The translations under genes and the position numbers were made by a program. A DNA stretch of 21,437 nucleotides from IMG/VR virus record IMGVR_UViG_3300049915_000035, positions 1-21,437 of that record, one strand, 5' to 3'. Origin of the DNA: a virus. The stretch's first letter is position 1. Each line of letters begins with the position of its first letter. Positions 1-18,314 of this stretch are shown here, in pieces. Under the pieces are notes generated by a model. It worked only from the letters and a program-made list of their open reading frames with translations, was not told where the DNA came from and made no database searches.

Positions 1-1043
1 CGAAACTTTTTATTATTTTTTGGGTGATATTCCATATATCCTTTCGCTTGAAACCCAATCCCTCCAGTATCTTCACTTTTGTTCATTTCTTTTGTTTTCT
101 TTTTCATCTTATTAATATATGTACGATAGATGGCCGCTTCTGCAGTTTTACCCATTTCTCTTGCACGTTGTTCCATAGCAACTGCCGCTTGTATTTTATG
201 TGCGTGTTTTTTACCAGAGTTTTCTATCTTCTTAACACTTGCTCGTGCAGTCTCAACATCTTTAAACCCTAATCCGTGTATTGTGCCTTTAGGATTTTCA
301 TCTGTATATAAATCAGAATGTTTTTTAGAATTAGCAGGTTGACCTTTCTTTCTAGGTATTCTAGGGTTTGTTTCTTCTTTCTGCGTTGCAATCCATTTCT
401 TTGCGATTGGATTCATTGGTTCTGCTTTTGCAAATTTATTCATTAGTCTATATGCTCTTAAACTTTCTTTATTATAGTCTTTTCCGTCTGAGTTGTCAAC
501 TATTATAAAGTTCTTTTTAAATGCTTGTTGATATCTACCTAGATTACTCTGAACTTCGTCCCACATCTTTCCTACTTCTTTTGGGTCTAGTCTTCTAGGT
601 CTTGCATCATTTCTTTTCAGTGCAGTTTCTTTGTCAGTGTTTACAAGTATCATTGCAGTACTATATCCAAGTTTTTGTAGTAAACCTCTTTGTCTTAATA
701 TTTTACTTGCATCTTTTCCAGTACCGTCAATCACTAATCCAAGTCTACCTTTCACATACAACTCTTGTTGTTTATTCGTAAGTTCTTTTGCTCTACCTCT
801 TATGTCTTGTCCTTTTATTGAAAAGATATTATCAGGGTTCATTTCAAGACCCGCTTTGTTTAGTGCCTTTTCAAATGCAGTATCAGGATTTACAACTTTA
901 AAACCTAAAGAAGTAAGTCCAGTCTTCCCGACAATAAATGATTTACCACTACCTGGACCACCTGCAAGAAAGATTGCCTTGAAGATTGCAGGGTCATTAA
1001 CGCCTTCTTCAATCTCTTTTATGTGTTCTGAAAAAGATATCAT
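1..1043 (-). CDS. Zeta-toxin-like P-loop kinase (3' end outside window)
   Basis: Reading leftwards from the ATG at 1043 gives 347 residues with no stop before the window edge, so the C-terminus is missing. A Walker A motif GGPGSGKS lies at residues 28-35, followed by VIDGTG at 104-109, an arginine-rich lid-like segment (KRNDARPRR, 143-151) and IVDNS at 181-185. This order is typical of zeta-toxin and polynucleotide-kinase-type P-loop kinases, which phosphorylate small molecules or nucleic-acid ends; the substrate here is unknown. After residue 210 comes a basic, helical second region (about 250-320) that I do not recognise as a named domain. The start overlaps the stop of the upstream gene as ATGA, implying translational coupling. 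The N-terminus (MISFSEHIKEIEE) resembles the FxEhhxE capsid-targeting peptides of T4 internal proteins. The kinase fold is fairly sure, the role is not. Confidence 0.8.
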   Translation of the reverse strand, partial: MISFSEHIKEIEEGVNDPAIFKAIFLAGGPGSGKSFIVGKTGLTSLGFKVVNPDTAFEKALNKAGLEMNPDNIFSIKGQDIRGRAKELTNKQQELYVKGRLGLVIDGTGKDASKILRQRGLLQKLGYSTAMILVNTDKETALKRNDARPRRLDPKEVGKMWDEVQSNLGRYQQAFKKNFIIVDNSDGKDYNKESLRAYRLMNKFAKAEPMNPIAKKWIATQKEETNPRIPRKKGQPANSKKHSDLYTDENPKGTIHGLGFKDVETARASVKKIENSGKKHAHKIQAAVAMEQRAREMGKTAEAAIYRTYINKMKKKTKEMNKSEDTGGIGFQAKGYMEYHPKNNKKF

Positions 1044-2161
1044 TTTAATGATGCTCCTGCAGGATTAGGTTTATAGTCACACATTAAATGCGTTGGGTGT
1101 AATCCACCTTGTTTGTTTCTAATATTAAATTTAAATATGTAAAGTGGTGTAATTACTTCAATGTCAATTCTTTTTGCATCACCTGGTTTAGGATATAATA
1201 TTTTTATACTTGATATTTTAGATGCTTTTTTAAGTCTTGCAGTATTCATTTCATAAAATTCTACTTTTTTACCTTTACGATGTACCATATAATACCCATA
1301 TCCAATACCCGTTAGTAATAATCTTTGTAATGCTGGTTTATTTGCTTGTCTAGTTGCATCAACAATAACTTTTTGAGATTTCTTTTTAGCATTTGCTCTA
1401 TCATACTTTGTGAATATTTCAATGAATCTTGCTTCATCTATACCAAACATATCAAGTAGTTTTTTAGCATCTTTATTATTAATTTTACCATCTGCGAAAT
1501 CAGATGGTGGCATTATTTTTCTAACACCAGCATTAAAGAATGTAACAGTACCACCAAATTTTGCAGAAAGATAAATTTTTCTAGTGCCATTAATTGTTAC
1601 TGTAACGTCTGTAACTTTGTCACCAATTTTTAAATCTCTACCGCCTATGACTGCTTTAACATCACCGAACACTAAAGGTCTTTTTGTGTTTGCAGTACCA
1701 TCTAGTTTTACTGAAATAGTTTTTGCATCTTTTAAAAATTCATCGTGCATAGATTTCATCATGTCAGGAAATTTAAAGTCAGCAGTTTCTCCTTCTGCGA
1801 TATACTTCTCAATGTCTTTTATTATTTGATGTTCAAACTCAAATCCTTTTGATTTAGCACCACCGCCGCCACGAGTTCCATTGCCTGATGTTAATTTAAA
1901 TCCATATTTACTAGAAAGTTTTTTTAAATCTAAATCTACTGCTACCGCTCTTTGAACTTTTATGCCTTTTTCTTTTGTTGATGGAGATAATGCTAGTGGG
2001 TCAGTTGCGCCAGTTTCTTGTTTTACGAATGCTAGTAATTCTTTTAGTTTAGACTTTTCATTATCAGATAAATGCTTAATAGCATCAACGTCTTTTTCAT
2101 TCTTTGGAAGAATATCGTATGCTTCTGAAAATGGTCTTCTGAAATGAGAATATCTAATCAT
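1040..2161 (-). CDS. Phage protein, possible PD-(D/E)XK-like nuclease core
   Basis: A 373-residue protein that I do not recognise by name. Residues 92-101 are glycine-rich (SGNGTRGGGG). They are followed by a helix with FEFEHQIIKDIE and then by two strands reading DVTVTING and KIYLSAKFGGTVTFFN. The order Glu (helix), Asp (strand), x-x-Lys (strand) recalls a PD-(D/E)XK nuclease core, with Ser where Glu is usual in the ExK pair. That assignment is tentative. The C-terminus (IRNKQGGLHPTHLMCDYK) looks like a conserved strand-rich end. The gene stands directly behind a T4-type late promoter with no Shine-Dalgarno in the 6-base gap, and its stop overlaps the downstream kinase ATG. A late promoter suggests a virion or packaging-phase product. 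The N-terminus contains RPFSEAYDI, possibly a degenerate capsid-targeting peptide. Confidence 0.75.
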   Translation of the reverse strand: MIRYSHFRRPFSEAYDILPKNEKDVDAIKHLSDNEKSKLKELLAFVKQETGATDPLALSPSTKEKGIKVQRAVAVDLDLKKLSSKYGFKLTSGNGTRGGGGAKSKGFEFEHQIIKDIEKYIAEGETADFKFPDMMKSMHDEFLKDAKTISVKLDGTANTKRPLVFGDVKAVIGGRDLKIGDKVTDVTVTINGTRKIYLSAKFGGTVTFFNAGVRKIMPPSDFADGKINNKDAKKLLDMFGIDEARFIEIFTKYDRANAKKKSQKVIVDATRQANKPALQRLLLTGIGYGYYMVHRKGKKVEFYEMNTARLKKASKISSIKILYPKPGDAKRIDIEVITPLYIFKFNIRNKQGGLHPTHLMCDYKPNPAGASLK

Positions 2162-2167
2162 AACTAC

Positions 2168-2175
2168 TATTTATA
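2168..2175 (-). promoter_or_regulatory. T4-type late promoter TATAAATA
   Basis: The minus strand reads TATAAATA, the exact T4 late-promoter core recognised by the gp55 sigma factor with gp33 and the sliding clamp. Only 6 bases (GTAGTT) separate it from the ATG at 2161, so transcription should begin at or next to the start codon. The box lies in a perfect 15-base inverted repeat (2166-2180, ACTATT-TAT-AATAGT on the plus strand), which also touches the stop codon of the upstream nuclease gene. Confidence 0.7.
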
Positions 2176-2179
2176 ATAG

Positions 2180-2881
2180 TTAAAATTTGATACTAGTATT
2201 TTCCTCATTCCATTGAGCAATCACTGATTTTAACGGTGTGACCCAATCATCTCTGTGTTCAATATATATCAAAGGAACACTATTGTCAACTGCAATAAGT
2301 GTAACCAATTGTGTAATCGGTTGACCAGTGCGTTCTTCCCACATAATCGCATACGCAGATTCTTGCATAAAATAGTTATGACACCATTGTCTCTTTTTAA
2401 ACTTACGACTTGTTTTGAAATCAATAATAGATATTTGTCCATTAAACTCTGCAACGCAATCTACTCTTCCCGCAACTCCTAGATGCGTAGAGTACAGTGG
2501 TGCTTCTTGGGCATGAATATTGTTTATGTTATCATCTAAAATAGGTCGTATCTTTTGAAACGTTTCTATATTGTTTGGCATCACACCATCAAGATAATCG
2601 GGGTCGTTATCTAGATACTTTTCACATATTGTATGAACTGCAGTACCGCGGTTTGCGGCACGAGTCGATATTTTATTTGCTTCTACTTCACCAACTCTTT
2701 TACGCCACTTTGCAATACTATCTCTGCTAAGTATCGATAATACTGTAGTAATCGATGGTAAGTCTATACCTTCGGGTGTATGATACTTACGACCTTCATC
2801 TGTCGTAACGGTGTTCATTTCAGTTAGTTCTACTGGAACGTGTTTAAAATTTTGTTTCTCTTTCATAGGCATCGTCTTCAT
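2180..2881 (-). CDS. PD-(D/E)XK exonuclease, RecB/Cas4-like
   Basis: A 233-residue protein with the whole RecB/Cas4-type nuclease signature: RGTAVH at 78-83 (metal-binding His83), GRVD at 138-141 (Asp141), IDFKTS at 153-158 (Asp154, Lys156) and a following Gln-x-x-x-Tyr-Ala helix (Q173, Y177, A178). Proteins of this kind in T4-like marine phages are annotated as exonucleases acting in recombination or host DNA breakdown. The start at 2881 is supported by AAGGTGAG about 6 bases upstream. The gene overlaps the end of the HExxH gene by 38 bases and is probably read from the promoter at 3242-3270. The late promoter of the next gene follows directly after its stop. Nuclease assignment is firm; the exact substrate is not visible. 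Confidence 0.9.
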   Translation of the reverse strand: MKTMPMKEKQNFKHVPVELTEMNTVTTDEGRKYHTPEGIDLPSITTVLSILSRDSIAKWRKRVGEVEANKISTRAANRGTAVHTICEKYLDNDPDYLDGVMPNNIETFQKIRPILDDNINNIHAQEAPLYSTHLGVAGRVDCVAEFNGQISIIDFKTSRKFKKRQWCHNYFMQESAYAIMWEERTGQPITQLVTLIAVDNSVPLIYIEHRDDWVTPLKSVIAQWNEENTSIKF

Positions 2882-3143
2882 CTATCTCACCTTTTGTTAA
2901 TAATTGTTGAGCATGTATTAATTCATGAGCAAGTGTAATATATTTTTCTTCATCGTATCTAATGTAGATATCTAGATGTTCTAATTGTTCATCAAATTCA
3001 ATGTACCCTTTAGTATTTTGTAATGAAATGTTCTTTGGTAATTTTCTAATCGAAACGATTACGTCTTTATCATCAATTTTTAGTTGTCTTACTAGTTCTA
3101 TTGCTTTCTCTTGAATCTTCTGGTTTTTGCATATAATATTCAT
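2844..3143 (-). CDS. Small HExxH metallopeptidase-like protein
   Basis: A 99-residue protein with LAHELIHAQQ, a zinc-binding HExxH motif (H73, E74, H77), followed about 17-19 residues later by glutamates in AYERE (E94, E96) that could supply the third ligand, as in gluzincins. The N-terminal 70 residues form an alpha/beta lead-in (MNIICKNQKIQEKAIELV, then IYIRYDEEKY). Small phage proteins with this layout are usually annotated as SprT-like or Zn-dependent peptidases; substrate unknown. It overlaps the 51-residue gene upstream by 71 bases and the nuclease gene downstream by 38 bases, so the three form one operon. AAGAACAAGAAG before the ATG is only a weak ribosome-binding site. Confidence 0.78.
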   Translation of the reverse strand: MNIICKNQKIQEKAIELVRQLKIDDKDVIVSIRKLPKNISLQNTKGYIEFDEQLEHLDIYIRYDEEKYITLAHELIHAQQLLTKGEIDEDDAYERETKF

Positions 3144-3228
3144 CTTCTTGTTCTTTAATCCAGAGTTCGTAGGGACATTCTTCTACTTCTTTTTGTTTTG
3201 AAAATAAGTTTTTAAACCAATTAATCAT
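3073..3228 (-). CDS. Small protein of unknown function (51 aa)
   Basis: A 51-codon reading frame that opens with MINWFKNLFSKQKEVEECPY and ends in a polar tail rich in Ser, Thr and Lys. The first nine residues could form a short amphipathic, membrane-touching helix; no domain is recognised. The main support is position. A TTGACT-17-TATAAT promoter points at it from 3242-3270, with the -10 box 13 bases before the ATG, and a weak GGA lies in that leader. It overlaps the HExxH gene by 71 bases in another frame, which is unusual even for this compact genome. If it is not translated, the region would be a leader for the HExxH gene. Confidence 0.5.
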   Translation of the reverse strand: MINWFKNLFSKQKEVEECPYELWIKEQEDEYYMQKPEDSRESNRTSKTTKN

Positions 3229-3241
3229 TTATATTCCGTAC

Positions 3242-3270
3242 ATTATACTTATATATACAAGAAAAGTCAA
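3242..3270 (-). promoter_or_regulatory. Sigma-70 promoter TTGACT-17-TATAAT
   Basis: On the minus strand TTGACT (3270-3265) is followed by exactly 17 bases and TATAAT (3247-3242). It faces the 51-aa, HExxH and nuclease genes. The -35 box lies inside the downstream arm of the terminator hairpin of the preceding gene. Confidence 0.8.
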
Positions 3271-3286
3271 CCCTAAAGTTGACTTT
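3263..3286 (-). terminator. Rho-independent-type hairpin after the DUF932 gene
   Basis: A perfect 9-bp stem (AAAGTCAAC / GTTGACTTT) with a 6-base loop lies 14 bases beyond the stop of the DUF932 gene. It is followed on the minus strand by a T-rich stretch (TCTTGT). The U-tract is imperfect, so termination may be partial. Confidence 0.6.
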
Positions 3287-3300
3287 CCTCGTCTAAAAGA

Positions 3301-4257
3301 TTATGCCGCTTCGGCGTATTCTACTGCCTTCTCGACCGCTTTAATCTTTCTAGTTTGGTTTCTACCAAACCATGCAGATGCCATTCTCGAATCTGCTTCT
3401 CTACCCATCTTGTGGTCTGTAAGATAAGTAACTGAGTTAAGTGCCTGCCACCAAGTTCCTGCACCCATCTCTGCCCCTGGTTGGGTTTCGAGAACTGCGT
3501 ATGCATCTTGACCTGTAGTAGACAAGTCTTTAAACTTCTCAACTGTAACAGGTTTTTTACCTTGGTAAGTTCTAGGGAACACTTCATTGTAGTATTGAAC
3601 TAGTGCTTTTGCACTGAACTTTTTACTAGCAAGAAATTGTGCCACATCTTTGTATTGAGCAAACTTTTCACTTGCAAGACCCATAGTCTCTTTTACGTGG
3701 TCAGCATCAAACACTTTTCTGTGATTCAATTTTGCACCCTGGTTTTTAACAGATGCTAATGCCATACTTAAAGTATTATTACAAACAACTCTGATAGGAG
3801 TGAATCTAATATCAATAGACTTTCCATACTCATGTGGGTTTGCAAATAATAAGTATGAGTCTACTTGGTCACTGTTACCAATATCAAATGACTCTTTGAC
3901 TTTTGCAAGTCCCCAAACCATTTTACCATCACGTAATGAACCAGCAGTTTCCATACTCATGTCACCTGCTAAACAGTACTCTGAGAAGAATTCAAATGCC
4001 TCTTCGTTTTGTACTGGGTACCAATTCTTACCAACTTGAGTAAGAACTTTGTTATCAGAACTTCTTACTAGTGCTTCTTGACCAGTAGGAACTTCTATTT
4101 CACCAACTCTTGCATAAGTTGGCACCTTATTGACTTGCCAATCAAGTCCTGCTTTTACCATTATCTGGTTGGGACTCAAATCATCACTGACTTTCGTACC
4201 AAGGCCATGCCAAGGAACTTCTCCTGCATATGCCATACTTTCAACTGCCGCTACCAT
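3301..4257 (-). CDS. DUF932 phage/plasmid-like protein
   Basis: A 318-residue protein matching the DUF932 / phage-plasmid-like (TIGR03299-type) family. It has the early PWHGLGTKV motif, QALVRSSDNKVL-like strands and the RFTPIRVVCNNTLSMAL core. The C-terminus has GTWWQALNSVTYLTDHKMGR and a final basic helix. Members occur widely in phages and plasmids and their biochemical function is not established. Length fits the family. AAGGAGGT about 5 bases before the ATG is the strongest Shine-Dalgarno seen here and fixes the start. A hairpin terminator follows the stop. It is probably cotranscribed with the two small genes upstream from the promoter at 4933-4961. Confidence 0.92.
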   Translation of the reverse strand: MVAAVESMAYAGEVPWHGLGTKVSDDLSPNQIMVKAGLDWQVNKVPTYARVGEIEVPTGQEALVRSSDNKVLTQVGKNWYPVQNEEAFEFFSEYCLAGDMSMETAGSLRDGKMVWGLAKVKESFDIGNSDQVDSYLLFANPHEYGKSIDIRFTPIRVVCNNTLSMALASVKNQGAKLNHRKVFDADHVKETMGLASEKFAQYKDVAQFLASKKFSAKALVQYYNEVFPRTYQGKKPVTVEKFKDLSTTGQDAYAVLETQPGAEMGAGTWWQALNSVTYLTDHKMGREADSRMASAWFGRNQTRKIKAVEKAVEYAEAA

Positions 4258-4267
4258 ATAACCTCCT

Positions 4268-4702
4268 TTATGATTGCACCCAAGAAATAGTCTCGGGTAG
4301 TTCGTTAAAATTATATTCTGGTTGAATTTCTTTAACCAAAATTCTGTATGCGTAATCTACACTTGAGTTGTAGTCGAAACCGCCAACATGCCAATCTACA
4401 GGCATGGTCTCTAAAGACTGAGGTCCATAAAGACTTTCTTTCCAATCGTAGATAGTGAACTGAAAAGTTTCAAAATCATCGCATTGTAATTCTTCATTGA
4501 AGAATTCTCTTTTACCTTCAATTGCCCAAGTGTACTCACTTTTTTCATCACCAAACATAATGTCAGTGGGAGCACCAAATACACCAACTAATTCTTTGAA
4601 TGTCATTGGTTTGATACCCATTTCACTGAATGATGCTTGAAGACAAGTACCGCCGATATTACTCGTATCTTCGGATACTTCGTAACTAATATTTTGTTTC
4701 AT
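4268..4702 (-). CDS. Conserved phage protein with TIYDWKE motif
   Basis: A 144-residue protein. The segment LVGVFGAPTDIMFGDEKSEYTWAIEG followed by FTIYDWKESLYG recalls a family of small phage proteins that pair an FGxP segment with a TIYDWK strand; no function is known for them. No signal peptide or membrane segment is present. GAGAGGT precedes the ATG by about 6 bases. It sits 10 bases upstream of the DUF932 gene and 11 bases after the 63-residue gene, so the three form one short operon. Confidence 0.8.
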   Translation of the reverse strand: MKQNISYEVSEDTSNIGGTCLQASFSEMGIKPMTFKELVGVFGAPTDIMFGDEKSEYTWAIEGKREFFNEELQCDDFETFQFTIYDWKESLYGPQSLETMPVDWHVGGFDYNSSVDYAYRILVKEIQPEYNFNELPETISWVQS

Positions 4703-5345: not shown

Positions 5346-5810
5346 TTATGCGTACTTAGAAAAGAATGTAATTACAGTTCTATCTGTATTGCCGTGAAGT
5401 GGGTGGTGTGGTACGTTTGCATTGAAACAAACTGCTCGATTATATTTGAATGGTACTTCGTCACCATCTATCCAGGTGCCACCATTTCCTTCTAAATAAA
5501 TGACACCTGAAAAATCCCATGCTTTATCGGTATGTGGCATGGGAGTGGATATGTTTTGTTCTAGTAAATGTTTGTAGAAAGTAATCCAACCAACTTTTAC
5601 ATTAAACATATTTTGTATTTTGTTGACGACCTCAGGAAGTTCAAACATAAGATTCTTAGTTCGAAGTCCTGGCCATTTACCAATGGATTCGCTTTTATTA
5701 TATTCTGCATATTGCTTTGCAGTATAATAATGAGAACTCTTAGAAAAATCTAAGAGTTCTTCCGGGTCGTCTAAAAAGTTATCAAATACTTGGTACTTAG
5801 AATTTGACAC
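5346..5810 (-). CDS. 2OG-Fe(II) oxygenase family protein
   Basis: A 154-residue protein with the whole facial triad of 2-oxoglutarate/Fe(II) dioxygenases: HTD at 93-95 (His93, Asp95), the histidines of VPHHPLHG (135-139), and Arg144 in DRTVITFF for 2-oxoglutarate. GVIYLEGNGGTW and FKYNRAVCFNANVPHH form the expected double-stranded beta-helix strands. Such proteins are common in T4-like marine phages; they hydroxylate proteins, nucleic acids or small molecules, and the target here cannot be read from sequence. The start overlaps the end of the outer-membrane protein gene by 14 bases, so both are read from the promoter at 6452-6480. Confidence 0.88.
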   Translation of the reverse strand: MSNSKYQVFDNFLDDPEELLDFSKSSHYYTAKQYAEYNKSESIGKWPGLRTKNLMFELPEVVNKIQNMFNVKVGWITFYKHLLEQNISTPMPHTDKAWDFSGVIYLEGNGGTWIDGDEVPFKYNRAVCFNANVPHHPLHGNTDRTVITFFSKYA

Positions 5811-6414
5811 TTAATTGTAAGGTTGCGTAGAGTTTATCAGTATTGAATTCATCATCTACTATATATCTAACTCCAGGCCTTATAGTGAAGTTTTTTCCAA
5901 ACTTAACATTTAACATGATGTCAGTTTGAATATCTTCAAAATCTCCATTACTTACACCGTTTTTACTAAATGCAAATCTAGGAGAGAAGTGAACTTGTGG
6001 TGCAACACAAACTAAATCTGTATTACATTTAAAATCACCTTTATATCCGAGAGTAGTTAAGACTCTAAAATAATTAGTTTTCTTATTCTTTTTACCTTCG
6101 ATATCACGATACTCTACTCTAGGTCTAAAATAGAAACCGTTTTCTTGTTGAAAAAGTTTTACTGAAATTCTAGGACGATGTTCAGGTCTACCTTTCTTTT
6201 CAACGTACTGATATGAAAAGTCCCAGTTATCATATTTGTACCCCAATTGGTGATGCGTTTTATCACTGTCTCCAAAGTAATGTCTGTATCTCCAAGATAC
6301 ATTATTACCAAAACTATCTTTAGTTTGTAATTTGAAGTTGAATTGCTCTCTATCCCAATTCTCTGCAAAGATTGGTGCAGAAAGAAACGCAATCAAAACT
6401 AAAAGTTTTTTCAT
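5797..6414 (-). CDS. Phage-encoded outer-membrane beta-barrel protein
   Basis: A 205-residue protein with a clean Sec signal peptide (MKKLLVLIAFLSAPIFA, cleavage before E18). The mature part alternates polar and apolar residues in short strands rich in Tyr, Phe and Arg (WRYRHYF, HQLGYKYDNWDFSYQY, GFYFRPRVEYRD). It ends LQLSVKF, with the terminal Phe typical of BAM-assembled outer-membrane proteins. I estimate 8-12 strands; it resembles small porins such as the KdgM type, though I cannot name a family. C130 and C136 could form a disulfide in an extracellular or periplasmic loop. The SD-like GGAG precedes the ATG. It is transcribed away from the curli cassette. Possible roles are a porin altering host permeability or receptor masking against superinfection. 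Confidence 0.82.
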   Translation of the reverse strand: MKKLLVLIAFLSAPIFAENWDREQFNFKLQTKDSFGNNVSWRYRHYFGDSDKTHHQLGYKYDNWDFSYQYVEKKGRPEHRPRISVKLFQQENGFYFRPRVEYRDIEGKKNKKTNYFRVLTTLGYKGDFKCNTDLVCVAPQVHFSPRFAFSKNGVSNGDFEDIQTDIMLNVKFGKNFTIRPGVRYIVDDEFNTDKLYATLQLSVKF

Positions 6415-6519: not shown

Positions 6520-6527
6520 TATAAATA
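6520..6527 (+). promoter_or_regulatory. T4-type late promoter TATAAATA for the curli cassette
   Basis: Plus strand TATAAATA, exact T4 late consensus, 7 bases (GGAGTGT) before the ATG at 6535. I see no host-type promoter for the plus-strand block, so the whole curli cassette appears to be late. The GGAG between box and ATG could be a Shine-Dalgarno, but if transcription starts at the usual distance it would hardly be in the mRNA. Confidence 0.75.
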
Positions 6528-6534
6528 GGAGTGT

Positions 6535-6831
6535 ATGACGAATGTAATAAAATTGTTAATGGAAGTAGGAATTCCGATAGGTTCTGCTATCGTTATGGGT
6601 TTCTTTATCTTTCTGACATTGAAATACATTCTAGACGGTGTTGCGAGTTCTGTAGAAGGACTTACTAACATTATGAAAGGATTAGAGTCTAGAGTTCGTC
6701 AGATGAACAACGACATGATTAAAATAGATTTAATCGTCAGTGAATCTTTGGAATTAAGACCCGATGTAGATAGGGTTGCTCGTGCAGAAAATTTTATGGA
6801 AGACGGTAAAATTGATGCGAGACGAGATTAG
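6535..6831 (+). CDS. One-helix membrane protein with coiled-coil tail (paralogue 1)
   Basis: A 98-residue protein with one membrane segment at about residues 12-33 (GIPIGSAIVMGFFIFLTLKYIL) and a charged amphipathic or coiled-coil region after it (LESRVRQMNNDMIKIDLIV). It aligns without gaps to the next protein: E10-x-G12-x-P14, MGFFI and RQMNNDMIKI match E12-x-G14-x-P16, MGYFI and RMLDNDLIRL at a constant offset of 2. This layout is seen in small holin-like phage proteins and in membrane adaptors. First gene of the late curli cassette; its stop overlaps the next GTG (TAGTG). Whether it is a holin or a partner of the CsgG channel cannot be told. Confidence 0.82.
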   Translation: MTNVIKLLMEVGIPIGSAIVMGFFIFLTLKYILDGVASSVEGLTNIMKGLESRVRQMNNDMIKIDLIVSESLELRPDVDRVARAENFMEDGKIDARRD

Positions 6832-7127
6832 TGAACATTGACCAAATAGTTTTAATTATCAACGAATTAGGATATCCCGTTCTAATGACTTTTGGTATGG
6901 GATATTTTATCTGGTATGTATGGCAGTATGTAACTAAGAAGTTGAAACCAACGATTAGTGCATCACATAAAATGTTAATCAATCTCCTTGACCAAATAAG
7001 AATGTTAGATAATGATTTAATTAGATTACAACAGAAAGTAAATACTGTAATCGAATATAGGAAACAACAAGAGAACAATGAAAAGAATAGTAATAATAAC
7101 TTGGGTACTAAGTCTACTCGCAAGTAA
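6831..7127 (+). CDS. One-helix membrane protein with coiled-coil tail (paralogue 2)
   Basis: A 98-residue protein starting with GTG directly on the stop of its paralogue (TAGTG). The membrane segment spans about residues 14-35 (Tyr/Trp-rich: MGYFIWYVWQYV). It is followed by LLDQIRMLDNDLIRLQQKV and a polar C-terminus rich in Asn, Lys and Gln. Same length and gap-free similarity to the preceding protein point to a tandem duplication. The last 50 bases overlap the start of the CsgF gene, so the C-terminal tail is encoded by DNA that also specifies the CsgF signal peptide. Holin/antiholin-type pair and secretion-channel adaptor are both possible. Confidence 0.8.
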   Translation: MNIDQIVLIINELGYPVLMTFGMGYFIWYVWQYVTKKLKPTISASHKMLINLLDQIRMLDNDLIRLQQKVNTVIEYRKQQENNEKNSNNNLGTKSTRK

Positions 7128-7560
7128 TATATACATATACACTTCCGAAGTAGTACATAAATTTAAGAGTCCTAGTTTCTCTGGGATATCTACTTCATCT
7201 CATTATCTAACAATTGAAAACCAAGAGAAAAGTAGAAGAGGTAAAATTGCAGATGACTTAGAGTCTGCAATTGCGGCCGCAGAAAGAGATGCGGAAGGAA
7301 CAACACAAGCAAAATTCCTAAGAAATTTAGAGTCTAGGATTTATGCACAAATATCCAAACAACTAGTAGATAAGATGTTCGGTACAGAAGAGGTAGATGC
7401 TTCATTAGAAGGTTTCTTTGATTTAATGGGAAACAGTATAAGTTATGAAGTATGCACTGGTTGTGGCGTAGACGGTGTTGATGTTATAAGAATATCAATC
7501 ACTAGTGAGGATAATACAATAACAAGTTTAGATGTACCGATAGGAAGTGGTTTATTCTAA
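7078..7560 (+). CDS. csgF: Curli assembly protein CsgF homologue
   Basis: A 160-residue exported protein. A signal peptide (about residues 1-22, MKRIVIITWVLSLLASNIYIYT) is followed by VHKFKSPSFSG and SSHYLTIENQEKSRR. This corresponds to the start of mature CsgF (F-x-NPNFGG...), the part that in E. coli inserts into the CsgG channel and narrows it. The middle is helical (DLESAIAAAERDAEG...), and the C-terminal third is strand-like with a Cys pair (CTGCG) absent from E. coli CsgF as I remember it. It is longer than the E. coli protein (138 residues). The stop overlaps the CsgG ATG (TAATG). CsgF identity rests on the N-terminal motif plus adjacency to CsgG. Confidence 0.82.
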   Translation: MKRIVIITWVLSLLASNIYIYTSEVVHKFKSPSFSGISTSSHYLTIENQEKSRRGKIADDLESAIAAAERDAEGTTQAKFLRNLESRIYAQISKQLVDKMFGTEEVDASLEGFFDLMGNSISYEVCTGCGVDGVDVIRISITSEDNTITSLDVPIGSGLF

Positions 7561-8429
7561 TGAGATTTTTTGTTATACTCGGACTAATCGTAGTCACGTA
7601 CGGTTGTGCAAGTATAACTAAATTTCACGAAATAGATTGTGAAGATGAACAATTTATGTGTCGTGAGAGTGCGAGTGTTGAAAACATACCAACAACCGAA
7701 GCACTGAAAAGAATTAATCCACCTAAAGGGGATAAGGTAGTAGTTGCAGTATATCAGTTTTTAGATAAGACTGGACAAAGAAAATATAGAGATAACTTCT
7801 CTGACTTTTCTACTGCAGTGACACAAGGTGCAGAAACTTTACTGATTGATGCACTGAAAACTGCGGGTAAAGGAGAATGGTTTAGAGTTGTAGAGAGAAC
7901 AAATATAGATGCACTTGTCAAAGAAAGACAGATTATCAGAAGTGCGAGAGAGGAGTTTAACGAAAAGAAAAAGTTAAGTCCTTTATTATTTGCGGGATTA
8001 TTAGTAGAAGGTGGTATTGTAGGATATGATACCAACTTAGAGTCGGGTGGTCGTGGTGCAAGGTGGTTAGGTATTGGTGCATCGACTACGTATAGAAGAG
8101 ACTCAGTAGTCGTTAGTGTGCGAGTAGTGTCGACACTAACTGGAGAGGTTTTGTTGAACGTACAGACAAAGAAAACAATCTTATCTGTAGGTGGTGGATA
8201 TGATGTATTCCGATTCTTTGATATGGACACACAGTTATTGGAAATTGAAGACGGCAACGGATTTAATGAAAGTGTCACGTATGCGACACGTTCTGCGATT
8301 GAAGTTGCAGTATTAGAACTTATTTACCAAGGCCACGATAGAGGTTATTGGGAAATAGAAGGTGAACATCGTCACCCGCATATGAATGACGGGACAAACG
8401 ATAGACATCAAATAAAGGAGAAAAAATGA
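7560..8429 (+). CDS. csgG: Curli secretion channel CsgG homologue (type VIII secretion)
   Basis: A 289-residue protein that follows E. coli CsgG along its length: VVVAVYQFLDKTGQRK, DFSTAVTQGAETLL, WFRVVERTNIDALVKERQII, VEGGIVGYDTNLESGG-RGARWLGIGA, TGEVLLNVQTKKTILS and SAIEVAVLELIYQG-DRGYWE. CsgG forms a nine-fold outer-membrane lipoprotein pore that exports curlins. The lipobox is slightly odd (VTYGC, Cys16). In the constriction loop E. coli mature Tyr51, Asn55 and Phe56 correspond to Y76, D82 and F83: Phe is kept, Asn becomes Asp, and the loop has two extra residues (YRDNFSDF). The C-terminus is extended and rich in His and Asp. Its stop overlaps the next start as ATGA. No CsgE or CsgC is seen nearby. 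Confidence 0.95.
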   Translation: MRFFVILGLIVVTYGCASITKFHEIDCEDEQFMCRESASVENIPTTEALKRINPPKGDKVVVAVYQFLDKTGQRKYRDNFSDFSTAVTQGAETLLIDALKTAGKGEWFRVVERTNIDALVKERQIIRSAREEFNEKKKLSPLLFAGLLVEGGIVGYDTNLESGGRGARWLGIGASTTYRRDSVVVSVRVVSTLTGEVLLNVQTKKTILSVGGGYDVFRFFDMDTQLLEIEDGNGFNESVTYATRSAIEVAVLELIYQGHDRGYWEIEGEHRHPHMNDGTNDRHQIKEKK

Positions 8430-9367
8430 GAGTAGTTCTCGGTTTGTTATTAATTTATATTACACATTTGCCTGTAGTTATGTTTGCAGACAATGAAATA
8501 TATATTGAACAAGTAGGAGACGGACTTGAGTTAATTATTGAACAAACAGGTAATGGAAACTTGGTTGGTCAAAATACAAGTACGGGTTCTTCTGCATCTG
8601 ATATGAAAATGCAGTTAGAAGACGGTAATGCATATTGGTTGTTCAATGGTAGTTCAAACTTATTGTTTGGTGATATTGCGTCCACTGGATTTAATATCGA
8701 CTACAATATTTCTGGTTCTTCAAACAGAATTAATCAGTTGATTGGTGATGTTACTGGAAATACCAATAGTAATTATAGTGCAGATAATATTGACTTAAAT
8801 GTTGATTTACAAGGAAGTAGTAACCAATTGACATTTAGATTTGGTAATAAATCTGAAACTTATAATACTCCTAATAACTTAGGAGATGGTGCGTTCTTCA
8901 ATAATAGTGCAGGATTTCAAACTTACTCTGCACATACGTTTCAAAATGGAGAAATATCTACTTATGGTACATACGGTGGTACGTGTGGTGGTTCTGCGTG
9001 TACTAACAATTATGGTTCAACTGCCGCATACTGGGATAGTTGGACTATTACCGAAGGTAGTGCAGACGGTCTAAATCTAGATTTACTAGTTGACGGTTCT
9101 GGTGCATCTAACACGATTGGTGCATTTGTAAACTCTGCAAACGCAACTTGGGATTTTGATATCACTGGTTCTAACAACTGGATATTAACAACTCAAGAAG
9201 ATGGTAGTGATAACAAAATATCTGTAGACCTAACTGGAGATAAAAACTATGTCTTCGTAGGTCAAAGAACGGGTACTAGTTTATCAAGTACAGAGGCGAT
9301 ATTAGATGCAAGTTTTGTTACAGACGGTTCAGAAATTACGATTATTCAACAAGATACTGGCGAGTAG
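8426..9367 (+). CDS. Curlin-like secreted repeat protein 1
   Basis: A 313-residue protein with a signal peptide (about residues 1-21, cleavage after VMFA). The mature start DNEIYIEQVGDGLELIIEQ closely matches that of the second curlin-like protein. The body repeats a strand-turn unit hxhxhxGSxN (GSSNLLFG, ISGSSNRINQ, LQGSSNQLTF, ITGSNNWILT, LTGDKNYVFV), Asn- and Gly-rich as in curlins, though spacing is irregular and few canonical Q-x-G-x-x-N units remain. A Cys pair is at C187 and C192 (CGGSAC). The C-terminus has ITIIQQ (304-309), shared with the FecR protein. It is probably a substrate of the neighbouring CsgG channel and a fibre or coat subunit; amyloid formation is inferred, not shown. 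Confidence 0.82.
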   Translation: MRVVLGLLLIYITHLPVVMFADNEIYIEQVGDGLELIIEQTGNGNLVGQNTSTGSSASDMKMQLEDGNAYWLFNGSSNLLFGDIASTGFNIDYNISGSSNRINQLIGDVTGNTNSNYSADNIDLNVDLQGSSNQLTFRFGNKSETYNTPNNLGDGAFFNNSAGFQTYSAHTFQNGEISTYGTYGGTCGGSACTNNYGSTAAYWDSWTITEGSADGLNLDLLVDGSGASNTIGAFVNSANATWDFDITGSNNWILTTQEDGSDNKISVDLTGDKNYVFVGQRTGTSLSSTEAILDASFVTDGSEITIIQQDTGE

Positions 9368-10454
9368 TTTATTACTGATAGGTTCTGTATTATACGCAGA
9401 ACCTATTGGTGATGTTCGAGAGTCTACGGGTGCGAGTCAAGTCACACGTCAGACGGGAGAGTCATACGAAGGTGCAGTAGACCTTTCGGTTCTTTTCATG
9501 GATAAAATGGAAACCATGAAAGGACGTATGAAAGTTGAACTAATCGATGAAAGTGTTTTTACTATAACAGAACATTCTATGGTCATTGTAGATAAATTTA
9601 TCTATGACCCCAACCCTACAAAATCTACTCTTGCACTTACCTTTGCAAAAGGTACTGCGAGATTTGTTACCAGTAAGACTGGTAAAATACCAAAAGAAAA
9701 TATTAGTATCAATACAAGTTCTGCAACGATTGGTATTCGTGGAACTGACTTTACTGTTACGGTAGATGAACTCGGTAGAACTTTAGTTGTTCTTTTACCA
9801 GATGAAACTGGTGCACCTTCTGGTTCAGTCATTGTCTCTAATCTGGGTGGAGAGATTATTCTGGACGAAGCATATCAGGCAACTCTGGTACAAAGTTATG
9901 ATGTCATACCAAAAGAAACTGTTATTCTACAAGGTATTACTATTCCTATGATTGATAATATGTTTATTGTAAACCCACCAAAAGAAATACGAAAGATTGC
10001 AGAAGAAGAAGAACAAAGTAACGATGATAAAGATAATATATTAGATATAGATTATTTAGAATTTGATGCATTAGAAGATGATGCCTTAGATAATAGAGAT
10101 GAATTTGAGTTTACTGAATTAGATATAGACTTGTTAGATGTAGACTTTTTACAAGATGTATTAGACATTGTTGCAGATTTAGACAAACTTACTGAGTTAG
10201 ATAGGAAGTCAGAAGAGATAGACAGTATAAATATAGAAGGTACATCAGTTGGTTTTGACCAAGACACTCAGTACAATACTTTAGTAGATAAGAGTGCGGG
10301 TAAAATCACATTGAATAGAGAAGTAACTGGTAAGATAAGAATTACTCAACCTATCTATTCAAATGCAAGAATAGTCACGATAACTGACCAGAAACCAAGT
10401 GACATTATATTAGGAGATGGTTCTGGTTCGAACATAACAATAATACAACAATGA
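9306..10454 (+). CDS. Secreted FecR-domain protein with acidic linker and curlin-like C-terminus
   Basis: A 382-residue protein with a signal peptide (about 1-31, ending SVLYA) and a FecR-type domain at about 35-155 (IGDVRESTGASQVTRQTGESYEG split by strands, then ISINTSSATIGIRGTDF at 133-149). Residues about 233-300 are a strongly acidic stretch with repeated L-D-x-D units. The C-terminal 80 residues are strand-like and end GDGSGSNITIIQQ, the same last hexapeptide as in curlin-like protein 1. The signal peptide is encoded within the last 62 bases of the preceding gene, and no other ATG offers a start nearer the domain. The stop overlaps the next ATG. There is no anti-sigma membrane segment, so it is more likely a fibre-associated or nucleating protein than a regulator. 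Confidence 0.82.
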   Translation: MQVLLQTVQKLRLFNKILASSLLLIGSVLYAEPIGDVRESTGASQVTRQTGESYEGAVDLSVLFMDKMETMKGRMKVELIDESVFTITEHSMVIVDKFIYDPNPTKSTLALTFAKGTARFVTSKTGKIPKENISINTSSATIGIRGTDFTVTVDELGRTLVVLLPDETGAPSGSVIVSNLGGEIILDEAYQATLVQSYDVIPKETVILQGITIPMIDNMFIVNPPKEIRKIAEEEEQSNDDKDNILDIDYLEFDALEDDALDNRDEFEFTELDIDLLDVDFLQDVLDIVADLDKLTELDRKSEEIDSINIEGTSVGFDQDTQYNTLVDKSAGKITLNREVTGKIRITQPIYSNARIVTITDQKPSDIILGDGSGSNITIIQQ

Positions 10455-11266
10455 AAGGTTTTAAAGAAGGTCTAAGAATTGTACTCCCTTGGTGGATAGG
10501 GTTTAGTATCATATTACTCAGTATAGAATATCTTCGTGCAGATAATGAAATAAGCATTACGCAAAGTGGAGATGGTATTGAGTTGTATATAGAACAAGAA
10601 GGTAAAGATAATCTTGTAGACTTCTCTATGCAACATTGGGGAAACAAAGTAAAGATAATACAACATGGACATAATAACCATGTAACCTACGGACATTGGG
10701 GTAGTTTAAGTAGTGGAGATTTAGACGGAACATTTAACGAATTACACTTTGCACAAATATGTAACCGCACTACGAGTTGTAAAACATCTGATATAGGTTT
10801 TCATATTTACGGAGACAACAACTCAGTTCGTTGGGGTCAAGGATATATTTTAAGTTCTATAACAGATACAACTTTTTCATGGGACGGTCAAGAAGGTGGT
10901 GGCCACGATGCGACTATTGATATTCATGGAGATAATAATAATCTTGCGGGTAATCAAAGAAATTCATCTGCGGGTATCTATAGTGAACACCAAGCAACTT
11001 TCAATCTTTATTCTGATAACAACAATGTGTTTTGGCAACAAAATACTGACGGTGTAAAAACTGTAAATCTATCTACATACAATGACGGAAACAATGTGAC
11101 TGGGTATCAAAGTGGTTATGCAACACATACTGCAAACATATCTTTGACTGGTTCTTTCCCAACTACATTAAGTCTATCTCAACAAGGTGGTTCTGCACAA
11201 TCATATTCTTTATCGCAGAACTGTCAAACCTCTGGTGGGTGTAACGTTTCTGTTGTTCAGCAATAA
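10451..11266 (+). CDS. Curlin-like secreted repeat protein 2
   Basis: A 271-residue protein with a long signal peptide (about 1-30, ending YLRA). The mature start DNEISITQSGDGIELYIEQ matches curlin-like protein 1 at most positions. Strand-turn units with GDNN-type turns recur at 69-78 (IIQHGHNNHV), 119-126, 158-165, 186-193 and 209-216, each followed by one or two Gln or Trp. They are 25-48 residues apart, looser than the ~20-residue repeat of CsgA. Cys pairs C104/C110 and C258/C264 occur. It ends CNVSVVQQ, a variant of the ITIIQQ end of its two neighbours. It starts in the ATGA overlap with the FecR gene and closes the late cassette, two bases before the end of a convergent gene. Likely a CsgG substrate. 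Confidence 0.82.
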   Translation: MKGFKEGLRIVLPWWIGFSIILLSIEYLRADNEISITQSGDGIELYIEQEGKDNLVDFSMQHWGNKVKIIQHGHNNHVTYGHWGSLSSGDLDGTFNELHFAQICNRTTSCKTSDIGFHIYGDNNSVRWGQGYILSSITDTTFSWDGQEGGGHDATIDIHGDNNNLAGNQRNSSAGIYSEHQATFNLYSDNNNVFWQQNTDGVKTVNLSTYNDGNNVTGYQSGYATHTANISLTGSFPTTLSLSQQGGSAQSYSLSQNCQTSGGCNVSVVQQ

Positions 11267-16378: not shown

Positions 16379-17236
16379 TTATTTATCCTCAAAATTTATG
16401 TTGTTAGATTTTTCTCGTTCATCGAGTTCATACTCTTCTCGCATTTTGTTGTTTATTTTAACAGACTCAGCAATTAAAGTCAAGTCTTCATCAAACTTAG
16501 TAATTGCACTCATGTCTTTTGGTAAACATGCTCCACCAAAACCACGTTTACCATCATATCCAGGAACTCTAGAGTGAGCAAAACCTATTCTATCGTCATT
16601 ACAAATACCATTAATTATTCTTTGAGGACTTAAATTTTGTTTTTTTGCACTGTCATATATTTGATTCATGAATGTAACTTTCATGCCAAGATAACTGTTA
16701 ACACCATATTTTACCATGGCCGCTTCTTGCGGTGTCATACTAACCCAAGAAAGATTGATACATAAACTAAATGTACTATAGAGTGCCATAATTCTTTGAC
16801 AAGATTCTTCTGATGGTCCACCAATAATTCTCATTCTAGAATTTACAAATTGTTCTTTTGCGTTATTCTCTGTTAAGAATTCTGGGTTGTGTGTGATTCT
16901 AAGTTTATCATCGTCATGTACTGAATTATATAATCTAGTCAGAATATCTGGTGTTACTGTTGATTTAATAACAACAAGTGCATTTGTATGTTCAATAAGT
17001 TTTAATACTGCATCTTCTACAATAGCACCATCAACTGTTCCATTATCAGACATTGGTGTTGGCGCACATACGAAAACACATGTTGGGTCCCACTTACATA
17101 ATTCATCAATGTTGGTATTTAATTTTGGGTCAACGTAAAACTTATCAACTAAGTCATGAGTAAATGCATAGTCAATTGCTTGACCGACAAATCCATAACC
17201 AACAATACCTATTTTTACTTTCTTGTCTTGTACCAT
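16379..17236 (-). CDS. UDP-glucose/GDP-mannose 6-dehydrogenase-like, lacking the C-terminal domain
   Basis: A 285-residue protein with the NAD-binding and central domains of the UDP-glucose dehydrogenase family: GYGFVG (13-18), STVTPD (92-97), NPEFL (118-122), Lys176 and Asn180 in the central helix, and GFGGACLPKD (232-241) with catalytic Cys237. Usual members have about 390-450 residues, with a C-terminal domain that closes over the UDP part; here the protein stops about 45 residues after the catalytic Cys. All catalytic residues remain, so an active short form or one with a different substrate is possible. It would oxidise a nucleotide sugar to the uronic acid, matching the epimerase gene close upstream. 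It overlaps the 43-residue gene by 22 bases. Confidence 0.85.
   Translation of the reverse strand: MVQDKKVKIGIVGYGFVGQAIDYAFTHDLVDKFYVDPKLNTNIDELCKWDPTCVFVCAPTPMSDNGTVDGAIVEDAVLKLIEHTNALVVIKSTVTPDILTRLYNSVHDDDKLRITHNPEFLTENNAKEQFVNSRMRIIGGPSEESCQRIMALYSTFSLCINLSWVSMTPQEAAMVKYGVNSYLGMKVTFMNQIYDSAKKQNLSPQRIINGICNDDRIGFAHSRVPGYDGKRGFGGACLPKDMSAITKFDEDLTLIAESVKINNKMREEYELDEREKSNNINFEDK
16455..16483 (-). promoter_or_regulatory. Possible internal promoter TTGACT-17-TAAAAT before uvsX
   Basis: Within the dehydrogenase coding region the minus strand has TTGACT (16483-16478), exactly 17 bases, and TAAAAT (16460-16455), 77 bases before the uvsX start. Only one base per hexamer differs from consensus and the spacing equals that of the intergenic promoters. 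It also encodes ordinary protein (DLTLIAESVKIN), so chance is possible. Confidence 0.3.
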
Positions 17237-17346
17237 TTTTTAAACTCTGGGTTATTTTGAAATATTGCAAATACATCACGTGGTGGAATTTGTTCTGTCT
17301 TAATACAAGATGCAAGATTTTCCCATTCTTCTTTATTGTACTTCAT
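17215..17346 (-). CDS. Small protein of unknown function (43 aa)
   Basis: A 43-residue frame (MKYNKEEWENLASCIKTEQI... ending EFKKWYKTRK) that fills the gap between the epimerase and dehydrogenase genes. Its ATG overlaps the epimerase stop (TAATG) and its end overlaps the dehydrogenase start by 22 bases, the junction pattern of real genes here. It is helical and basic at the C-terminus, with no recognised domain. I see no signal or membrane segment. Confidence 0.65.
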   Translation of the reverse strand: MKYNKEEWENLASCIKTEQIPPRDVFAIFQNNPEFKKWYKTRK

Positions 17347-18314
17347 TAGTTCACTTCCATATAATCTTTATACCATTCCATAAAATGTGCAACACCTTCT
17401 TCTATATCGACCATAGGTTGATATCCTAACTTCTGTAGTTTGCTTGTATTACTCCAAGTTTCAAGAACATCTGCAGGGTGAGGTGGCACTAAATTTACTT
17501 TTGGTTCTCTATTCAATTCTTTTCCAATTCTATCTATAAACTTCATAAGTTCAACTTGTTTACCATTACCTATATTAAATATCTCTCCAGACTCTATGTC
17601 TTGATTAAAGATAACAAGTTTTATTCCTTCAACGATATCATCAACATAAGTGAAATCTCTTTTCATTAGTCCATAATTGTATGCTTTGATTGGTTTATCT
17701 TTCACAATACTTGTACTAAAATCAAAGAGTGCCATATCAGGTCTACCCCATGGCCCATACACTGTAAAAAATCTTAGACCAATGTTATGTAGTCCCGACA
17801 TTTTAAATTGACATTCGTTTACATACTTAGTATATGCGTAAGGATTTCTTTGATGTGGTTGAACATTATCTTCTGTCCAAGGCAAAGTCTTTGTTCCACT
17901 ATATACAGAACTTGTGGACGCATATATTACTTTTTCTACTTGATGTAGTTTACATGCGTTAATTAGATTTTGTGTACCTTCGATATTATCTCTATGATAC
18001 AAATGTTCATTACCCATACTATTACGTACACCTGCACGTGCGGCCAGATGCACTACAATGTCAGGTTCATAATCTTGAAACAACATATCTAACTTTTCAA
18101 AATCATTTAAATCACAATTTCTCATTTCTAAACCAAATTCTTCGCATCTATCTTTTTTTAGTTGCGGGTCATAGTAATTATTGAAGTTGTCTATACCAAC
18201 ACAATACAAATCATATTCTTTTGTTAACAAAGAGTTCATTAAATGACTTCCAATAAATCCTGCACCACCAGTAACTAATATCTTCACGTGTTTAACTTCT
18301 GTTTCTGTAGACAT
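17346..18314 (-). CDS. NAD-dependent nucleotide-sugar epimerase, UDP-glucuronate 4-epimerase-like
   Basis: A 322-residue extended-SDR epimerase: GGAGFIG (16-22), GIDNFNNYYDPQLKKDR (40-56), HLAARAGVRNS (89-99), STSSVY (133-138), catalytic Y159-x-x-x-K163 (YAYTK), RFFTVYGPWGRPDMALF (181-197) and RDFTYVDDIVEG (219-230). The NYYDP, AGVR and GPWGRPDMA motifs are those of UDP-glucuronate 4-epimerases, which interconvert UDP-glucuronate and UDP-galacturonate. The neighbouring dehydrogenase-like gene could supply UDP-glucuronate, so the pair suggests uronic-acid sugar synthesis for a phage or host surface glycan. No glycosyltransferase is seen in the window. It overlaps the primase gene by 23 bases. 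Confidence 0.9.
   Translation of the reverse strand: MSTETEVKHVKILVTGGAGFIGSHLMNSLLTKEYDLYCVGIDNFNNYYDPQLKKDRCEEFGLEMRNCDLNDFEKLDMLFQDYEPDIVVHLAARAGVRNSMGNEHLYHRDNIEGTQNLINACKLHQVEKVIYASTSSVYSGTKTLPWTEDNVQPHQRNPYAYTKYVNECQFKMSGLHNIGLRFFTVYGPWGRPDMALFDFSTSIVKDKPIKAYNYGLMKRDFTYVDDIVEGIKLVIFNQDIESGEIFNIGNGKQVELMKFIDRIGKELNREPKVNLVPPHPADVLETWSNTSKLQKLGYQPMVDIEEGVAHFMEWYKDYMEVN

Follow-up and report, generated by a model that had tools for sequence, protein, structure and literature searches.

A phage type VIII (curli) secretion operon was identified in a 21,437-nucleotide (nt) stretch of viral DNA (IMG/VR record IMGVR_UViG_3300049915_000035, positions 1 to 21,437), hereafter the window. Seven tightly packed plus-strand genes, tm1, tm2, csgF, csgG, curlin 1, fecR, and curlin 2, fill positions 6535 to 11266, and the genes on both flanks are all on the minus strand. 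We propose that this module is expressed late and makes the infected cell export curlins, which are displayed as an adhesive surface fibre, a reading to which we give a probability of about 0.55. Sequence evidence strongly supports its components, namely, a CsgG channel, a CsgF docking segment, two curlin-family substrates, co-conservation, purifying selection, and a late-type promoter, and export of curlins late in infection is very probable. Among the purposes that such export may serve, adhesive, diversifying fibre display is the best supported, followed by superinfection blocking. The first-pass annotation of this DNA had described a five-protein operon; all five genes are present in the order that it gave, but the operon begins before csgF with the genes of two membrane proteins of 98 amino acids (aa) each (6535 to 7127).

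The identity of CsgG, previously assigned by motif, is borne out by profile searches. Residues 51 to 270, the channel domain, align with nonameric Escherichia coli CsgG (PDB 4uv3, E=2.9e-46), and the lipobox, GCAS, is that of an outer-membrane type VIII channel. CsgG and CsgF both pass their Pfam cut-offs (Table 1). The profile of the CsgF family matched PDB CsgF weakly (E=0.57) and over the N-terminal ~45 residues only, the single sequence had no relevant match in PDB, and the remainder of the protein does not match E. coli CsgF. Directly after the signal peptide, all 79 phage CsgF proteins examined carry the motif [FY]-x-[NS]-P-x-F-x-G, which replaced an earlier, stricter regular expression matching 11 of 80. 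We take its position to be that of the E. coli CsgF segment that enters the barrel in CsgG:CsgF structures. The conserved motif would fit a normally docked CsgF, and it weakens the idea that phage CsgF no longer binds CsgG.

The two curlin-like proteins scored below the Pfam cut-off for the curlin repeat (E=0.018 and 0.0031), but profile comparison confirms them as curlins. A profile built from curlin 2 and related proteins matched just two PDB entries, both of them curlins (8c50, E=3.5e-8; E. coli CsgA 8enq, E=0.0063), and curlin 1 and curlin 2 belong to one family (hhalign, 99.6%, E=1.6e-24). Motifs of the curlin-type turn, GxxN followed by a strand, number 13 in curlin 1 and 7 in curlin 2, compared with 1.3 and 0.8 in shuffled sequences, and such counts were never attained in 2,000 shuffles. 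The curlin model was matched at E<=0.01 by 38 of 74 curlin 2 proteins, the best relative reaching 2.2e-14. AlphaFold2 modelled curlin 2 as a repeated-strand beta structure, with successive short strands ~11 residues apart (mean predicted local distance difference test [pLDDT] score, 75; predicted template modelling score, 0.76). Foldseek comparison of this model with PDB gave no match at E<=0.001, the weak ones being to a mixed set of proteins, most of them beta-helical. The signal peptides of the curlins were judged by eye.

Curlin 2 is an exchangeable cassette. In 55 pairs of loci with FecR proteins at least 80% identical, mean identities were 93% for CsgG, 93% for curlin 1, 92% for FecR, and 78% for curlin 2, and curlin 2 had the lowest identity of the four in 43 pairs. 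A clean exchange separates loci L055 and L060. Over L055 positions 780 to 4618, a stretch that begins near the tm gene and includes fecR and the curlin 2 signal peptide, their DNA is 98.7% identical; it is then unrelated over 1.1 kb and 1.4 kb, respectively, and again 98.0% identical into the adenylate cyclase gene. The cassette is thus swapped right after the signal peptide, and one of these two alleles encodes a plain curlin and the other a curlin with a PA14 head. Some other versions also carry domains typical of adhesins: PA14 in phage HTVC008M, an F5/8C head in another relative, and GLEYA-like domains in some. The curlin 2 proteins of L068 and L072 have a head of ~250 residues with no recognised domain. 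We suggest, tentatively, that curlin 2 could be a receptor-binding-like gene acting outside the virion, with swapped heads on a constant export machine, so that infected cells would become sticky traps of a specificity evolving like that of tail fibres, and FecR would be a third exported subunit and no regulator.

Late timing, proposed by the first-pass annotation from TATAAATA ahead of the operon, is probable. The motif was found as described and, among 73 related operons, it occurs exactly within 70 nt upstream of the first gene, tm1, in 33, in differing sequence contexts and often directly after a terminator-like hairpin. In the complete relative HTVC008M, base composition would give 54 occurrences of TATAAATA and only 21 are present; the genes that it precedes include those encoding the DNA end protector, the baseplate, the tail, and the portal, and also csgF. 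HTVC008M encodes gp55, a gp33-like factor, and gp45; the window, itself a fragment, showed none of the three. A late motif has been described in cyanomyophages and T4, the cyanomyophage late promoter being NATAAATA (PMC2984593). As to expression in general, phage curli genes have been detected in Pacific metatranscriptomes (PMC9599517).

Between the end of the motif and the first ATG of the operon lie only 7 nt. Late transcription in T4 starts ~6 nt downstream of the motif, and a similar start here would give a near-leaderless operon mRNA. The TATAAATA motif often ends 5 to 7 nt before a start codon (window 6520 to 6535, plus strand, and 2161 to 2175, minus strand; HTVC008M, L164 to L166), and a spacing of 5 nt is common to several HTVC008M genes. 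Leaderless late mRNAs are accordingly a prediction for these phages.

The module was compared across ~160 viral loci, 80 fetched by CsgG and 78 new ones by FecR. In both sets, the usual order is tm-tm-csgF-csgG-curlin 1-fecR-curlin 2, often with a cyclase gene at the end; one clade has tm-csgF-tm-csgG, and some loci have a single tm gene or no curlin 2. In all 61 FecR loci with room for them, CsgG, CsgF, one or more tm proteins, and curlin 1 are encoded along with the FecR protein. Among close relatives of the window, the ratio of nonsynonymous to synonymous substitution rates lies between 0.03 and 0.36 for each of the seven genes, which shows that all are under purifying selection there. Many of 70 bacterial CsgG loci, mostly from Alphaproteobacteria, have CsgF and curlin genes adjacent, whereas the FecR protein, the tm proteins, and the cyclase were found in none of the 70 within the fetched DNA (up to 10 kb on each side). 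In close relatives, a lysine-rich gene of ~170 to 180 aa lies between fecR and curlin 2 (L002, 5313 to 5852; L003, 8844 to 9401). This gene seems to have moved, because a 301-nt stretch ~85% homologous to it lies in reverse orientation at window positions 78 to 378. Phage-type curli modules also occur on ten further 'bacterial' contigs, which resemble phage contigs that were assigned to genomes by binning; such modules are on L084, L085, L086, L087, L088, and L097, binned as Sphingobacteriales, Rhodobacteraceae, and Flavobacteriales, and mis-binning of this kind probably gives rise to wrong 'bacterial' curli annotations. The CsgG matches also include an unannotated Salmonella phage record of 1.5 kb (44.9% identical).

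The FecR-domain protein consists of an apparent signal peptide, the FecR domain (residues ~35 to 195), an acidic helical linker, and a C-terminal beta tail ending in NITIIQQ. The tail is predicted to form six short strands, 10 to 11 residues apart (pLDDT ~86). Only the FecR domain was matched, by Pfam above its cut-off and by Foldseek of the predicted model (PupR, 6ovk, E=2.2e-4). A terminal I-x-I-x-Q strand is present in 59 of 60 FecR proteins of the first set and 77 of 78 of the second (136 of 138 together), compared with 1 of 335 other open reading frames of at least 150 aa. The motif was picked after the sequences had been seen, and the 78-locus second set serves as the check, the two sets being not fully independent. 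The curlin likeness of the tail rests on this terminal motif and on the strand spacing in the predicted model. A role as an iron-responsive regulator was rejected: in the model, the signal-like N-terminal helix runs straight into the FecR domain with no anti-sigma part, and no FecI-type sigma gene was seen in the operon. Both the apparent secretion of the protein and its curlin-like final strand make such a regulator unlikely.

The tm1 and tm2 proteins are paralogues with one membrane helix each, and the core R-M-x-D-x-D-x-I-R-L is conserved in the tm2 family. No Pfam match was obtained for tm1, and no kinase match for either protein in Pfam at E<=1. One or two 'histidine kinases' have been reported to precede the phage curli set (PMC9599517), and these are probably the tm proteins; the kinase assignment itself was rejected, since 98 aa is too short and kinase matches are missing. 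When fetched independently, the tm pair lay beside a curli module in 66 of 66 cases, 51 in the operon and 15 on the opposite strand. In these 15 loci (L260, L278, L281, L286, L292, L306, and L320 among them), the pair lies away from csgF and faces the cyclase end of the operon in convergent orientation.

Table 1. Promoter motif and genes of the curli operon, in window positions
Feature	Position	Strand	Basis
TATAAATA, predicted T4-type late promoter core	6520..6527	+	Exact motif
tm1, 98-aa single-helix membrane protein, conserved helix after	6535..6831	+	phrog_18771, E=1.9e-26
tm2, tm1 paralogue, 98 aa, GTG start	6831..7127	+	phrog_18771, E=4.2e-27
CsgF, predicted secreted CsgG-docking protein	7078..7560	+	PF10614, E=4.9e-7
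CsgG, outer-membrane lipoprotein channel	7560..8429	+	PF03783, E=1e-49; PDB 4uv3; lipobox GCAS
Curlin 1 (constant curlin), signal peptide then curlin repeats	8426..9367	+	hhalign to curlin 2 family; motif counts
FecR-domain protein	9306..10454	+	PF04773, E=8.1e-10; predicted model; 6ovk match; C-terminal motif
Curlin 2 (variable curlin/adhesin cassette)	10451..11266	+	PDB profile matches; predicted model; allele exchange

Taken as an adhesive export system, the module would work as follows. CsgG would form its usual nine-fold channel, capped by CsgF; curlin 1 would be the constant fibre subunit, and curlin 2 the diversifying, target-binding one. The FecR protein would reach the envelope or be exported, and its C-terminal strand may add it to the stacked curlins, where it could serve as anchor, cap, or sensor; tm1 and tm2 may be dedicated inner-membrane partners. 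The most likely benefit would be that the infected cell or its debris adheres to neighbours and brings about more contact between virions and hosts ('sibling capture'), with superinfection blocking a close second. If so, phages would make their hosts sticky as they die, and this in a habitat that is among the most dilute on Earth. Several points weigh against this reading. Fibres and secretion are predictions from the genes, and the window contig is a 21-kb fragment. In the one relevant published observation that we found, cultures infected with the Methylophilales phage Melnitz did not clump by cytometry or transmission electron microscopy (PMC9004378). Neither the CsgE gate nor the CsgC chaperone was found among the window proteins scanned with Pfam, as the earlier reading had noted; CsgE is helpful to such systems but not strictly required, and it is described as absent from alphaproteobacterial curli operons (PMC9599517). 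Homology of the FecR tail to curlin is unsupported by hhalign (probability, 6.8%; E=0.0054), and most curlin 2 alleles, including that of the window, have no recognisable added binding domain.

Surface masking, proposed previously (PMC9599517), is the best placed of the alternatives, and we still consider it unlikely. Fibres would coat the cell and block the access of competitors to receptors, and curlin 2 would vary with competitors and surfaces. A late, surface-exposed product with a diversifying subunit would suit this role, as would the probable outer-membrane barrel gene and the nucleotide-sugar genes near the operon (see below). Superinfection exclusion usually acts early, however, so that late expression comes late for it, and the PA14 and F5/8C domains of some curlin 2 alleles suggest binding instead.

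In an alternative with distinctly lower odds, the fibre would be part of an envelope sensor, and the FecR protein would report fibre assembly or contact to a CHASE2-adenylate cyclase, whose cyclic AMP would alter the infected cell. This cyclase is the usual last gene of the operon, in 28 of 38 FecR-found loci with room for it. Relatives of the FecR protein occur in 10 of 30 curli-bearing bacterial genomes, matching in the FecR domain only and lacking the curlin-like ending, and 3 of these 10 adjoin a CHASE2-type cyclase, so FecR and the cyclase are probably an older pair. The phage module resembles a combination of two bacterial units, one for curli and one with FecR and the cyclase, with a curlin-like ending on its FecR. 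Against signalling as the purpose, the cyclase was not found in the window phage or its closest relatives, one of them on a 50.7-kb contig, yet their FecR is under purifying selection.

A lysis-timing role is very improbable. From the divergence of Melnitz CsgF and the gene context, Buchholz et al. (2022, PMC9004378) read the Melnitz operon as a lysis-related pore, with CsgG alone or with an inverted CsgF acting as a pinholin- or secretin-like pore, and tm1 and tm2 are of holin size. The premise of that argument was that curlins are missing; the paper states that csgA and csgB are absent, but the Melnitz record annotates curlin-repeat genes, and curlins are present and conserved in these phages. 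The argument is further weakened because CsgF retains its CsgG-docking motif throughout. The CsgG lipobox points to the outer membrane, and a pore there would leave the inner membrane polarised; HTVC008M carries separate endolysin genes. 'Helping release', one of the purposes listed in the first-pass annotation, is disfavoured by the conserved docking motif and the conserved substrates. Least probable of all is an uptake pore, suggested in PMC7029224 and PMC9599517 from the lack of CsgE, which would leave the channel open for cofactors or siderophores, and from a FecR regulating iron uptake in keeping with its Pfam match, since the features of FecR described above speak against it and curlins and CsgF would serve no purpose.

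Phage curli modules are widespread in the ocean, and three papers offer differing guesses at their function. The same module was described between 2020 and 2022 for pelagimyophages (Zaragoza-Solas et al., PMC7029224), an OM43 phage (PMC9004378), and pelagipodophages (PMC9599517), so the suspicion that such phage genes might already be known was correct, and the full composition, which had been thought open, was reported in 2022 with curlins and FecR included (PMC9599517). In that study of uncultivated pelagiphages, CsgF, CsgG, CsgA/B, and FecR, often with a second curlin and an adenylate cyclase, were described in podo- and myophages. The window shares genes and gene order with HTVC008M and other pelagimyophages (PMC7029224) and with HTVC023P-type pelagipodophages (PMC9599517), that is, one or two small upstream proteins, CsgF, CsgG, curlin, FecR, and a second curlin, but it and its closest relatives have no adenylate cyclase. 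Melnitz (PMC9004378) has the same module and order, with a CsgG 43% identical, and its operon ends in a CHASE2-cyclase, unlike that of the window. The window operon is therefore a further case of the published kind, lacking the usual cyclase, and its composition is not new; what is new are the readings of FecR, the small membrane proteins, CsgF docking, and the curlin 2 cassette. Our evidence disagrees with both names used in the pelagiphage literature, histidine kinase and iron regulator FecR. A displayed adhesin agrees better than a lysis pore or iron uptake with a curlin 2 that is exchanged and a FecR that seems to be secreted. Many alphaproteobacterial chromosomal curli operons likewise have csgF, csgG, and curlin-repeat genes side by side, with CsgG ~40 to 51% identical, but they differ in that the FecR protein and tm pair of the window were not found in the DNA fetched around them. 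The likeness to csgDEFG-csgBAC of E. coli extends to the CsgG channel domain, the N-terminal docking part of CsgF (weakly), and the curlin repeats; the window differs in its extra FecR and tm proteins and in that CsgD, like CsgE and CsgC, was not seen among its scanned proteins.

The virus, a marine one, is T4-like, as had been noted, because the neighbours of the operon include a gp43-type DNA polymerase, a primase, UvsX, and a DnaB-type replicative helicase. Its polymerase is nearest to that of phage C48C1 (64.8%; Kyanoviridae), a phage not found among the CsgG matches. A search of the window against Rfam gave no match. Just upstream of the operon, a 205-aa protein (5797 to 6414, minus strand) with a signal-peptide-like start, a C-terminal phenylalanine, and a weak DUF2490 match below the cut-off (7.8e-4) looks like a phage-encoded outer-membrane beta-barrel. 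Its gene is kept next to the operon in the close relatives of the window and essentially nowhere else among the fetched loci. Genes of a UDP-glucose dehydrogenase and a nucleotide-sugar epimerase (16379 to 17236 and 17346 to 18314, minus strand) lie among the replication genes, and in C48C1 the same pair adjoins the primase gene.

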